A stretch of DNA of 64,000 nucleotides from an uncultured Paracoccus sp. GTDB lineage: Bacteria; Pseudomonadota; Alphaproteobacteria; Rhodobacterales; Rhodobacteraceae. The notes beneath the pieces are model-generated. The model saw nothing but the letters and a program-made list of their open reading frames with translations, was not told the origin of the DNA and searched no databases. The position numbers and the translations under genes are program-made. Location: positions 1 to 64,000 of the forward strand of contig NZ_CANMEH010000011.1 in assembly GCF_947496875.1 (NCBI RefSeq), given 5' to 3'. The first letter of the stretch is position 1. Each line of letters begins with the position of its first letter. Below are positions 200 to 46,941 of the stretch, in pieces.

Positions 200-811
200 T
201 CAGAGCTTGGAAATCTTCGACTGCAGGTCGGCAAGCTGGCGGCGGATTGCCTCCATGTCGTCGGGCGCGTCCTTTCGGGCGGCCGTGTCGGCGTCCGCGC
301 CGTCGGGTTCGGTGCCGCTCGACCCCGCGGGCAGCGTCCAGCCGCCCATCATGGCGCGCAGGAACAGCTTCTGCTGCCGCTGCAGGGCTTCGAACCCCGG
401 CATCGCCGCCATCGGCGACTTGAGCTGCGTCATCTGCTCCATCATCTTGGACTGGCCTTCCCGCAGCATCTCGAAGCTCGCAGCTAGGAATTGCGGCACA
501 ACCGACTGCGCTTGGGTGGTATAGCTGCGCACCAGATCGGTCAGCACGTCCAAGGGCAGCACGTTCTCGCCCCGGCTTTCGTGCTCGGCGATGATCTGGA
601 GCAGGTATTGCCGCGTCAGGTCGTCGCCGGACTTCAGGTCGATGATCCGCACCTCGCGCCCGGAACGGATGATCCGCGCGATCTCGTCCAGCGTCACGTA
701 ATCCGACGTCTCGGTGTTGTAGAGCCGCCGGCTGGCATAGCGCTTGATCGTCAGGGGCTCGGCGGGCGCGGTGCCCGGCTGCCGGGCTGCGGTCGAATGG
801 TCATTCTGCAT
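200..811 (-). CDS. phaR: Polyhydroxyalkanoate synthesis repressor PhaR
   Basis: N-terminal IKRYASRRLYNTETSDYVTLDEIARIIRSGREVRIIDLKSGDDLTRQYLLQII is the PhaR DNA-binding/PHB accumulation domain; next to phaP and phaC. Confidence 0.95.
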   Translation of the reverse strand: MQNDHSTAARQPGTAPAEPLTIKRYASRRLYNTETSDYVTLDEIARIIRSGREVRIIDLKSGDDLTRQYLLQIIAEHESRGENVLPLDVLTDLVRSYTTQAQSVVPQFLAASFEMLREGQSKMMEQMTQLKSPMAAMPGFEALQRQQKLFLRAMMGGWTLPAGSSGTEPDGADADTAARKDAPDDMEAIRRQLADLQSKISKL

Positions 812-961: not shown

Positions 962-1441
962 TCAGCCCTTGTTTTCGGTCGAGCCGGTGGTTCCACCAAA
1001 GTTGGTGCTGGCCGTGCGGGCGGCGCTCTGCACGTCGCGGGTCACGTTCTGGGCAACACGCTGGGCGTCCGACGCCGCGTCCTTGCCGGCGTTCAGCATC
1101 AGGTCGACGGTTTCCATCTGAACCTTCTTGGCCACTTCGGCATACGCCGCCATGTGCTGCGAAGCGATCTCGGTGGCGGCGGTGGCGAAGTCGCTCATCG
1201 CCTTGGCGTATTCGGCCGGCTGCTCACGCGCGGCGGACAGCTCGCCCAGACGAGCGATCGCGTCGCGGGCCCACTGGGCCGAGATCTCGGTCGAACGCTC
1301 GGCGGCTTCCAGCGCGACACGGCTCATCTTTTCGCCAAGCGCGGTCTGGGTCTTAAACGCCTCGGTCATCGACGAGTTGTCGATCGGCAGATTGGACATC
1401 ATGTCCTGGAAGTTCTTGGTGAAGTCGGGGGTCTTTGCCAT
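962..1441 (-). CDS. phaP: Phasin family protein
   Basis: 159-aa protein MAKTPDFTKNFQDMMSNLPIDNSSMTEAFKTQTALGEKMSRVALEAAERSTEISAQW, phasin-like; between phaR and phaC. Confidence 0.9.
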   Translation of the reverse strand: MAKTPDFTKNFQDMMSNLPIDNSSMTEAFKTQTALGEKMSRVALEAAERSTEISAQWARDAIARLGELSAAREQPAEYAKAMSDFATAATEIASQHMAAYAEVAKKVQMETVDLMLNAGKDAASDAQRVAQNVTRDVQSAARTASTNFGGTTGSTENKG

Positions 1442-1550: not shown

Positions 1551-4334
1551 TCAGGCCAGTTCCCGCACATAGCTGCCGGGCGCTGCCTCGATCACCTGCG
1601 ACGGATGGCGCGCTGCCACCATGTCGCCGGATTGCCTTGCCAGCCACGCTTCCCACACCGGCCACCAGCTGCCCTTGTGGAACGCGGCCTTGGCCTTCCA
1701 GTCCTCGGGCGTGTCGATGTCGTCGTCGGCACTTCCGATGTAGTGGCCGTATTTCTCGCGGCCCGGCGGATTGACGATCCCCGCGATGTGGCCCGATTCG
1801 GACAGCAGGAACGTCTTGTCATGCGATCCCATCATCGACACGCCCCGCCAGCTGTCGACCCAGGGCGCGATGTGATCGCCCTCGCACGCGACCGCGCACA
1901 CCGGGACCGTCACCTCTGACAGCCGGACCTTGTGCCCCAGAACCTCGAAGCCTTCGGTGGCGAGCTTGTTCTCCTGGCAGACGCCGCGCAGATAATCCGT
2001 GACCATCCGCGCCGGCAGGTTGGTGCCATCGCCGTTCCAGTAGAGCAGGTCGAAGGCCGGCGGCGAGTCCCCCATCATGTAGTGGCGGACCGCCGGTCCC
2101 CAGACCAGGTCGTTGGCGCGCAGAAAGCTGAAGGTGCGCTGCATGATGCGCGACGCGAGATAGCCGGCGCGCTGGACCTCCTCCTCGATGCCGCTGAGAA
2201 AGTCGTCCTGCAGATAGGTCGTGAACTCCCCCATTTCGGAGAAATCCGTCAGTGTGGTGAAGAAGGACGCGGACCGCACCTGATCGTCGCCCCGCTGGGC
2301 AAGCAGACCGAGCGTCATCGACAGCGTGGTCCCGGCGATGCAGTAGCCGACGGCATTCAATTGCGGCTGCTCGGTCAGGTCGCGGATCTTCTGGAACGCC
2401 GACAGATAGGCGGCAACATAGTCCTCCATCCCGACATTCGCATGTTCCCGCGTGGGATTCTTCCACGACACGACGAAAAGCGTGTACCCCTTGTCGACAA
2501 GCCAGCGGATCAGGCTGTTCTGCGGCTTGAGGTCAAGGATGTAGAACTTGTTGATCCACGGCGGCAGGATCACCAGCGGAACGGCGTGGACCTGTTCCGT
2601 CGTCGGTGAGTACTGGATCAGCTCGAACAGGTCTTCGCGGTGGACCACGGCTCCCGGGGTGGCGCCGATGTTCTGGCCCACGGCGAAGGCGTCACGGTCG
2701 GACAGCGACACGACCAGTTCGCCGCCGCCATGCTCGATGTCGGCGACCAGGTTTTCCAGTCCCCGCACCAGGCTTTCGCCTTCGGTCTCGATCGCCCGGG
2801 CCAGCGCGTCCGGGTTCGTGGCCAGGAAGTTGGTCGGCGCCATCATGTCGATCATCTGCCGCGTAAAGAACTCGATGCGGCGGCGCTCGACCGCGTCCTC
2901 GATGGGCAGATCGGCCGCGGCACGCCGCAGGGCTTCGGCGTTGATCCGGTACTGCTCGCGCACATAGGCGAAGAATGGATTGGTCCGCCACAAGGGGTTG
3001 CTGAACCGCTTGTCGCTTTCGTCGTCCTTCCTGACCGCCGGCGCCGCGATGCCGCGCTGCATGAACGCCGATTGCGTGTCCGCAAGGTTCCGCAGCGTGT
3101 CGCCCCAGTAGCGGACCTGGTGCTCGATCAGCCGCGCGGGCTGCTGCGTCGCCAGCCGCATCCAGCCGGTCGCCGCCGCGGCGTAGAAGTCCGTCCCCGG
3201 CCCCTCTATCCCTTGAACGTGCAAGGGACGGCGGGCCAGGGCCTGCATCAGCCGCTGGCTCAGTTCCTCGATACGCTGGATGTTCTCGGCTATACGGCCG
3301 GGCAGCGGCACATCGCCGGCCGCCTCGCCTGTCGCACCGCTCTGCCCACCATCCGGCACAGCCTGGCCCGAGGAACCGGTCGACCCCACGCCAGCGGTCC
3401 TGGTCATGTCGTCCGAAGCGGGTGCGTCCGTTTGTGAAGCAGGTTCCGGGCCGGGACGGCTGCCCCCACCGTCTACTTGCCCGTCATGTCCCTCCGGACC
3501 CATGTCCCCGGACGCAGGCGCATCGGCTTCCGAGGCGCGGCCACCATCGTCTTCGCTGCCGTCGCCCTCGCCTGCGGCATCCATCGCCTGTGCGGCCTGG
3601 TTGATTGCCCCGGATGCGGGCGCGTCGGCTTCCGATACATGCTCGTCGCCGCTGGAAAGAGGCGTGCTCATGCCAAGGCGCCCGCCATTCTCGGCGGCAT
3701 GTACCATGTCGTCGGATGCAGGCGCGTCGGCCTCCGAGGCGTGACCATCATCGGCTCCCTCGCCGGCGTTGTCGCCCGTAGCACCCGCTCCTTGGGGGGC
3801 CTGCTGCATTGCGTGGGATGCCGGCGCGTCGGCTTCCGACACGTGCTCGTCACCGCTCGTCAGAGGAGTGCTTGTCTCACCGCGCCCGCCGTTCTCGGCG
3901 ACATGCACCATGTCCTCCGATGCCGGTGCGTCGGCCTCCGACACGTGATCTTTCTGATCCATCGCAACCTCGCTGGACTCCGTGACGGCGCCCTTCTTTC
4001 GGTGTGTCATCCGGCGTGTTCCGGTACGCAGGTCTGACCGATCGGGCGTCCTGGCACGGGCCGGAACGGTCGGACGGGTGGCAGGTTCGCGGCGCGGCTG
4101 CGACGGCTTGGCTGGCCGTGACGCACCGTTCTGATCAGCGTTCGCAGCACCCGCGCCAGACGTGCTGTCCTGTGCTGCGTCTGCCGGGCGACCGCGATCC
4201 ACCGAGCCGGAAGAGGCCTCCGCCGGACTACCCGCACCCGATGATTTCTTTGGATTTCCAGCCTTGGACCGCCCCCGCCGTCCCGCGCCAGCCTTCGGTT
4301 CGTCGTTGCCGTCCGAATCCCGTCCGCTTGCCAT
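1551..4334 (-). CDS. phaC: Class I poly(3-hydroxyalkanoate) synthase with a repetitive N-terminal extension
   Basis: C-terminal ~600 aa typical of PhaC, including the lipase-like box GYCIAG and 'PPWINKFYILDLKPQNSLIRWLVDKGYTLFVVSWKNP'. The exact start is uncertain (alternative in-frame Met at MTHRKK and MDQKDH). Confidence 0.93.
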   Translation of the reverse strand: MASGRDSDGNDEPKAGAGRRGRSKAGNPKKSSGAGSPAEASSGSVDRGRPADAAQDSTSGAGAANADQNGASRPAKPSQPRREPATRPTVPARARTPDRSDLRTGTRRMTHRKKGAVTESSEVAMDQKDHVSEADAPASEDMVHVAENGGRGETSTPLTSGDEHVSEADAPASHAMQQAPQGAGATGDNAGEGADDGHASEADAPASDDMVHAAENGGRLGMSTPLSSGDEHVSEADAPASGAINQAAQAMDAAGEGDGSEDDGGRASEADAPASGDMGPEGHDGQVDGGGSRPGPEPASQTDAPASDDMTRTAGVGSTGSSGQAVPDGGQSGATGEAAGDVPLPGRIAENIQRIEELSQRLMQALARRPLHVQGIEGPGTDFYAAAATGWMRLATQQPARLIEHQVRYWGDTLRNLADTQSAFMQRGIAAPAVRKDDESDKRFSNPLWRTNPFFAYVREQYRINAEALRRAAADLPIEDAVERRRIEFFTRQMIDMMAPTNFLATNPDALARAIETEGESLVRGLENLVADIEHGGGELVVSLSDRDAFAVGQNIGATPGAVVHREDLFELIQYSPTTEQVHAVPLVILPPWINKFYILDLKPQNSLIRWLVDKGYTLFVVSWKNPTREHANVGMEDYVAAYLSAFQKIRDLTEQPQLNAVGYCIAGTTLSMTLGLLAQRGDDQVRSASFFTTLTDFSEMGEFTTYLQDDFLSGIEEEVQRAGYLASRIMQRTFSFLRANDLVWGPAVRHYMMGDSPPAFDLLYWNGDGTNLPARMVTDYLRGVCQENKLATEGFEVLGHKVRLSEVTVPVCAVACEGDHIAPWVDSWRGVSMMGSHDKTFLLSESGHIAGIVNPPGREKYGHYIGSADDDIDTPEDWKAKAAFHKGSWWPVWEAWLARQSGDMVAARHPSQVIEAAPGSYVRELA
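3405..3950 (-). repeat. Degenerate tandem repeats encoding (H/R)(V/A)SEADAPAS units in the PhaC N-terminal extension
   Basis: Five copies of SEADAPAS plus a diverged SQTDAPAS in the translation, several embedded in a longer duplicated unit (DMVHxAENGGR...STPLxSGDEHVSEADAPAS). Confidence 0.85.
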
Positions 4335-43706: not shown

Positions 43707-43961
43707 TCAGGCAGCGAACAGCAGCAGCAGCGCGACGAGGAACGAGAAGATCCCGAGCGCTTCGGCAAAGGCCATGCCGATGAACAGCGTCGCGGTCTGC
43801 GATGCGGCCGCCGACGGATTGCGCAGGGCGCCCGACAGGTAGTTGCCGGCAACGTTGCCCACCCCCATCGCGGCACCGGCCATGCCGATGCAGGCCAGAC
43901 CCGCGCCGATGTACTTGCCCCAGTCGGCGGTGGCGACGGCGGTGACGACTTCGTTTTCCAT
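43707..43961 (-). CDS. atpE: F0F1 ATP synthase subunit c
   Basis: Within ORF 43707-44147 the frame contains [84 protein letters not shown]. Confidence 0.95.
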
Positions 43962-45855: not shown

Positions 45856-46005
45856 TCAGGCCGCGACGCCGTAGGTGATCGGTTCAGCCACGGCAGCCGG
45901 TGCCTTGTACTCGTAATAGTCGTACATCTGGGTCAGCACGGCGATGCCGGCAGCGGCAATCGGATTCTGCGGCAGGTTGGCCGGGCGGATGGTGATCGTG
46001 TTCAT
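45856..46005 (-). CDS. 49-aa orphan small protein, candidate PhaR-regulon member
   Basis: MNTITIRPANLPQNPIAAAGIAVLTQMYDYYEYKAPAAVAEPITYGVAA; GGAG Shine-Dalgarno 7 nt before the ATG; phaP-like promoter upstream. Confidence 0.7.
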   Translation of the reverse strand: MNTITIRPANLPQNPIAAAGIAVLTQMYDYYEYKAPAAVAEPITYGVAA

Positions 46006-46046
46006 CGTTCGTCTCCATTCATCCCTCCCTGCCCCATCATCTAATG

Positions 46047-46057
46047 CTGCATTGCAG
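46047..46057. promoter_or_regulatory. Putative PhaR operator CTGC-ATT-GCAG upstream of the 49-aa ORF
   Basis: Perfect CTGCN3GCAG, followed 2 nt later by TTTCAA (minus-strand TTGAAA -35) as at the phaP promoter. Confidence 0.65.
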
Positions 46058-46114
46058 CGTTTCAAATGCACCTGACCCGACGTCAGATTGCGATTCGGCC
46101 GCATGACAATGGGA

Positions 46115-46140
46115 AAGGGCCGCCCATCCGGACGGCCCTT
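46115..46140 (-). terminator. Terminator downstream of sdhB
   Basis: AAGGGCCGCCCATCCGGACGGCCCTT near-perfect inverted repeat; minus strand ends in CCCTTT. Confidence 0.65.
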
Positions 46141-46161
46141 CTCCGGTGCGGTGAGGCGATC

Positions 46162-46941
46162 TCAGACGACGCGGTCCACCATCATGTGCTTGATGGCCCC
46201 GATCGCCTTGGCGGGGTTGAGCCCCTTTGGGCAGGTGTTCGTGCAGTTCATGATCGTGTGGCAGCGGTACAGTTTGAACGGATCCTCCAGCTGGTCCAGC
46301 CGCTCGCCCGTTGCCTCGTCGCGGGAATCGATGATCCACCGATAGGCGTGCAGCAGCGCCGCCGGGCCTAGGTACTTGTCGCCATTCCACCAGTAGGACG
46401 GGCAGGACGTCGAACAGCACGCGCAAAGGATGCATTCGTACAGCCCGTCCAGCTTCTTGCGGTCCTCGATCGACTGGCGCCATTCCTTCGGCGGGGTCGG
46501 CGTCTCGGTGATCAGATAGGGATTCACGCTCGCATGCTGGGCGTAGAAATGCGTCAGGTCCGGCACGAGGTCCTTGACCACCGGCATGTGCGGCAGCGGA
46601 TAGATGTTGATGTCACCCGCGACCTCGTCGATCCCGTAGATGCAGGCGAGATGATTGCCGCCATCGATCACCATCGCGCAGGACCCGCAGATCCCCTCGC
46701 GGCAGGACCTGCGGAAGGTCAGGGTCGGATCGATCTCGTTCTTGATCTTGTTCAGCGCGTCGAGAACCATCGGACCGCATTTGTCCAGGTCGATCCAGTA
46801 GGTGTCCAGCCGCGGGTTCAGCCCGCTTTCCGGATCATAGCGATAGATGTTGAACCGCTTCAGGCGGTTCGCCCCTTCGGGCTTGGGCCAGGTCTTGCCC
46901 ACGGTGATGCGGCTGTTCTTGGGAAGCGTAAACTGGACCAT
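46162..46941 (-). CDS. sdhB: Succinate dehydrogenase iron-sulfur subunit
   Basis: [12 protein letters not shown] and [34 protein letters not shown] FeS motifs. Confidence 0.97.

Follow-up and report, generated by a model that had tools for sequence, protein, structure and literature searches.

The window, by which we mean the whole 64,000-nt stretch of DNA that was analysed, carries a short ORF on the minus strand directly after the succinate dehydrogenase gene sdhB. The features of this locus are as follows.

45856 to 46005, minus strand: small-protein ORF of 49 aa, MNTITIRPANLPQNPIAAAGIAVLTQMYDYYEYKAPAAVAEPITYGVAA including the stop codon (ORF list; homologs; dN/dS 0.13-0.42 in most close pairs)
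46013 to 46016, minus strand: Shine-Dalgarno sequence GGAG, 7 nt before the ATG (direct sequence reading)
46036 to 46044, minus strand: -10 region TTAGATGAT (promoter search, and alignment with TTATCT/TTATAT of relatives)
46047 to 46057, no strand assigned: PhaR-type palindrome CTGC-AAT-GCAG (CTGCATTGCAG on the plus strand); position kept in relatives; phaP-site matrix score 26.6
46060 to 46065, minus strand: -35 element TTGAAA, 2 nt from the palindrome (direct reading and promoter search)
46114 to 46141, minus strand: GC-rich 12-bp hairpin between the promoter and sdhB (-30.4 kcal/mol, z -2.65)
46162 to 46941, minus strand: sdhB, succinate dehydrogenase iron-sulfur subunit, the conserved upstream neighbour (ORF and synteny)

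On the minus strand the signals were arranged in the order TTGAAA-CG-CTGCAATGCAG-CATTAGATGATGG, GGAG and the 49-aa ORF. A sigma-70-like match, TTGAAA-18-GATGAT, was found where 0.1 were expected; the -10 hexamer is uncertain and could be GATGAT or, by alignment with relatives, TTAGAT. A preliminary description of this DNA had placed a palindrome 2 nt from a minus-strand TTGAAA both here and at phaP, and its sequence, coordinates and promoter geometry were reproduced, as was the GGAG that it assigned to the ORF. The small ORF is the sole evident target of the palindrome because the upstream gene, sdhB, runs in the same direction. The hairpin lacked a good T run and the intrinsic-terminator search made no call at 46114-46141. 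It is possible that this hairpin is the end of the sdh transcript, and its location between sdhB and the promoter fits a separate transcript for the small ORF.

The same window contains the phaP and phaR genes, which serve as the reference for PhaR-type sites.

200 to 811, minus strand: phaR regulator gene, encoding the proposed repressor
945 to 955, no strand assigned: PhaR-type site CTGCAGCGCAG between phaP and phaR
962 to 1441, minus strand: phaP phasin gene (product of 159 aa)
1507 to 1517, no strand assigned: PhaR-type site CTGCGGTGCAG of the phaP promoter, in the spacer position
1536 to 1546, no strand assigned: second PhaR-type site CTGCACCGCAG of the phaP promoter

The phaP promoters of relatives followed a T-GCTGC-RNY-GCAG rule, with the 3' site within the -35/-10 spacer. 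This rule is also seen in the DNase I-based footprint consensus of Bradyrhizobium PhaR, TGCRNYGCASMA (PMC6201568), and the site of R. sphaeroides PhaR is CTGCNNNGCAG (PMC12542648). In the window, phaC lies inside a 927-aa ORF (1551-4334, minus strand) with a long N-terminal SEADAPAS-type repeat region, an unusual length for a class I PHA synthase.

The sequence TGCTGCNNTGCAGCNTTTCAA occurred exactly twice in the 3.95-Mb genome, at 1505-1525 (phaP) and at 46045-46065, and TTGNANNGCTGCNNNGCAGC, with zero mismatches allowed, was found genome-wide only at the phaP and small-ORF promoters. The promoter had been described as phaP-like, and the combination of -35 element and perfect palindrome is indeed confined to these two places. 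Seven CTGCN3GCAG palindromes were present in the window against 2.55 expected. All four non-coding copies (945 at phaR, 1507 and 1536 at phaP, and 46047) had N3 = R-N-Y, and none of the three coding copies did. With a scoring matrix built from the phaP sites of relatives, the phaP site scored 33.0 and the small-ORF site 26.6; in a sample of about 20 further distinct perfect palindromes from the genome, none exceeded 18.5. The top-scoring of these (CGATGCTGCACTGCAGTAACA; L105, G000 C1:192049) lies inside a long ORF and is possibly a further PhaR target. A relaxed PhaR-type match, CTGCGATGCGG at 43797-43807 in the ATP synthase gene region, is likely to be due to chance. In the small-ORF promoter of the window the proximal site was perfect and the distal site degraded.

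A single-sequence search of 36 congeners returned three remote relatives of the small protein, each encoded immediately 3' of sdhB. Such searches, with few or no relatives, agreed with the orphan status given to the ORF in the preliminary description, and an alignment-based search overturned it. A profile search with a loose cut-off gave matches in 103 of 121 Paracoccus genomes. Reading of the loci identified 51 genomes with an ORF of 38-64 aa shortly 3' of sdhB on the same strand, and about 37 further genomes had the family at another location, where the inspected loci lie after tyrS. A large Paracoccus group (L018, L036, L065, L066 and similar) carries the family directly 3' of tyrS and not of sdhB. 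Named hosts include Paracoccus denitrificans, versutus, thiocyanatus, aminovorans, kondratievae and yeei. Outside Paracoccus, a match at E 0.05 was obtained in 43 of 296 other sampled Rhodobacteraceae genera, and inspection of the DNA that follows sdhB, carried out independently of small-ORF matches, found a small ORF in 13 of 77 other genera. In some genomes the family member precedes an nfu-like gene; in L165, L174 and L180 (other genera) the small ORF near an nfu/NifU-like gene has a first YY motif and a C-terminal ALxQMYGYY. A class-wide search at E 0.001 found no member beyond Rhodobacteraceae, with so few genomes per group and so strict a cut-off that absence is unproven. No account of the small protein was found in open-access papers, which does not disprove that one exists elsewhere, and a paper on P. 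denitrificans sRNAs mentioned none of the sdh terms sought. Judged by sequence comparison, the ORF belongs to a family of predicted proteins of 38-64 aa without a name, mostly sdhB-linked, present throughout Paracoccus and sporadic in other Rhodobacteraceae. The earlier proposal had been made dependent on conservation of the ORF in relatives, and homologs do occur throughout the genus.

The PhaR-type site is conserved together with the ORF. CTGCN3GC[AG]GC was present in 40 of the 51 sdhB-linked Paracoccus loci against 0.26 expected, and was followed by a -10-like stretch in 33 of them against 0.0 expected; these and the following site counts are not independent, as the sampled genomes share ancestry. 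With the relaxed pattern CYGC-N3-GCRG, 79 sites were found in 45 of the 51 intergenic regions, a density of 10.65/kb compared with 0.21/kb in the flanks. N3 was R-N-Y in 70 of these 79 sites and in 6 of 22 controls. In 45 of 51 cases (3.6 expected), the top phaP-matrix match of the locus was located upstream of the ORF at a distance of no more than 140 nt. At least two sites were present in 32 sdhB-linked loci, mostly 20-23 nt apart, so that the spacing in many promoters is about two helical turns. P. denitrificans has the pair CCGCGTCGCAG and CTGCGGTGCGG, after which comes CGTTATCT. Most Paracoccus small-ORF sites had the relaxed form CTGCN3GCGG, whereas all extracted phaP sites had GCAG; the GCGG form may have a lower affinity for PhaR. 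Selection for binding is indicated most strongly by the free variation of N3 inside the RNY rule, and CYGC-RNY-GCRG is proposed as the relaxed PhaR consensus of Paracoccus. Membership of the PhaR regulon, as proposed in the preliminary description, is thus strongly supported by phylogenetic footprinting, with the site kept in 45 of 51 sdhB-linked loci.

Among tyrS-linked copies, CTGCN3GC[AG]G was found in about half, several of which have two sites with a spacing of about 31 nt, and perfect paired sites recur at non-sdhB locations in part of this set. No site was recognisable in many copies from other genera or in about half of those linked to tyrS. In part of the tyrS-linked group, a possible terminator stem of tyrS (CCGCCCTGAC...GTCAGGGCGG) occupies the place that a PhaR-type site takes in others. 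Outside Paracoccus (L177, L181, L188, L240, L245 and L295), a GCAT/CATGGC element often lies a few nt past the palindrome.

The homologs have a common core, A-L-x-V-L-x-Q-M-[YF]-x-Y-[YF]. The family is under purifying selection in most close pairs; dN/dS exceeded 1 in some more distant pairs, for which the alignment is poor. A C-terminal -AA was present in 102 of 119 homologs, whereas only 4 of the window's 81 long ORFs ended in this way. AlphaFold2 gave a single 14-residue helix (residues 15-28) and left the rest of the chain unstructured; the model is uncertain, with a pTM of 0.33, and is not the long amphipathic helical protein seen in phasins. Searches of Pfam and NCBIfam gave no match, phasin profiles included, and the PDB gave nothing useful. 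Some homologs from other genera contain two YY motifs, which suggests a short binding motif. ssrA-like degrons are C-terminal ClpXP signals. The near-invariant -AA end resembles such signals and would suit rapid turnover by ClpXP.

PhaR is the main PHB-storage sensor in alphaproteobacteria. It is encoded in the genome that holds the small ORF (phaR, 200-811), in 117 of 121 Paracoccus genomes and in 288 of 298 across Rhodobacteraceae, and is absent from none of the 44 genera with the small ORF. As its presence is near universal, it cannot discriminate. Genomes without PhaR are few and incomplete; one (G064) has lost the site and another (G084) retains it. We consider it very probable that the small-protein gene has its own promoter and is a direct target of PhaR, derepressed alongside phaP upon PHB accumulation. 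PhaR would sit on CTGCAATGCAG in the -35/-10 spacer and bar RNA polymerase, an analogy with phaP that the site position supports. When PHB builds up, the granules would titrate PhaR away and the small gene and phaP would be derepressed together. A weaker GCGG site in most species might make derepression earlier or leakier than that of phaP.

As a guess at the most likely mode of action, the product would bind a partner or surface during PHB storage; candidates are the granule, the enzymes of PHA and an enzyme of metabolism. Tentatively, and with somewhat less than even confidence, we suggest that the product is a signal or adaptor with a short lifetime, linking PHB storage with central metabolism or the assembly of granules via its aromatic QMYxYY motif, in an undescribed Rhodobacteraceae family controlled by PhaR at more than one genomic location. 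A function at the granule is one of several options; the sequence does not itself indicate binding to granules. That the product is a minor phasin-like helper, coating or organising PHB granules, is possible though doubtful: it would share the predicted control of phaP and has a short helix with an aromatic motif, but it resembles neither phasins nor any Pfam or NCBIfam family, and its 49 aa and single short helix fall far short of the size of the 159-aa PhaP encoded in the window. Tuning of succinate dehydrogenase or the TCA cycle by PHB status seems unlikely. The position after sdhB is conserved; in Bradyrhizobium PhaR has an effect on sdhB, and in S. meliloti it shows weak binding at the sdhC promoter (PMC10888616, PMC12542648), but elsewhere the family also follows tyrS or precedes an nfu-like gene. 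The sdhB link is frequent and not universal; therefore a direct role in succinate dehydrogenase is possible and not favoured.

Control of the small gene by a regulator other than PhaR with a similar CTGC-N3-GCAG palindrome is improbable. The usual form at the small ORF, CTGCN3GCGG, does differ from the GCAG of phaP, but the RNY preference of N3, the spacer position and the best phaP-matrix match are common to both promoters, and the PhaR site lists of S. meliloti contain CYGC/GCRG variants (PMC12542648). It is highly improbable that the transcript is a small RNA with an incidental ORF; PhaR is known to repress the sRNA MmgR of S. meliloti (PMC12542648), but the conservation is at the protein level with varied codons and low dN/dS in most close pairs, and no Rfam covariance model matched the locus. 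A random palindrome beside a spurious ORF is scarcely credible and was refuted computationally, for despite about 90 perfect CTGCN3GCAGC per strand in the genome, the site is conserved far beyond expectation (above all the 40 and 45 of 51 loci given above) and sampled genomic palindromes score far lower on the phaP matrix.

To our knowledge, the known PhaR targets of Paracoccus comprise little beyond phaP and phaR. With direct control by PhaR as the preferred reading, the known regulon probably gains a predicted target, the gene of an undescribed small-protein family. A conserved small protein under the switch of phaP would be a new, testable player in bioplastic storage, and it occurs in P. 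denitrificans, a model organism. The CYGC-RNY-GCRG consensus can be used to seek further PhaR targets in Paracoccus.

Among known systems, MmgR of S. meliloti is a PhaR-repressed sRNA (PMC12542648). It resembles the small ORF in being a small transcript under PhaR control, which is predicted for the small ORF, and differs in that MmgR is non-coding whereas the small ORF shows coding conservation and has no Rfam match. SMc02051 and SMc03998 of S. meliloti are, like the product of the small ORF, small proteins without assigned function and with PhaR-type sites (PMC12542648). They belong to another bacterial family and have no known sequence relation to the small ORF; a strong rise on phaR deletion was measured there (PMC12542648), whereas regulation is predicted here. 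Compared with the Paracoccus/Rhodobacter phaP promoter, the small-ORF sites are often GCGG and not always GCAG as in the extracted phaP sites, their pairs are 20-23 nt apart whereas most phaP pairs are spaced by about 28-31 nt, and the copy in the window has one clear site. The likeness lies in the CTGC-RNY-GCAG palindrome placed between TTGAAA and the -10 region, and in the use of two sites.
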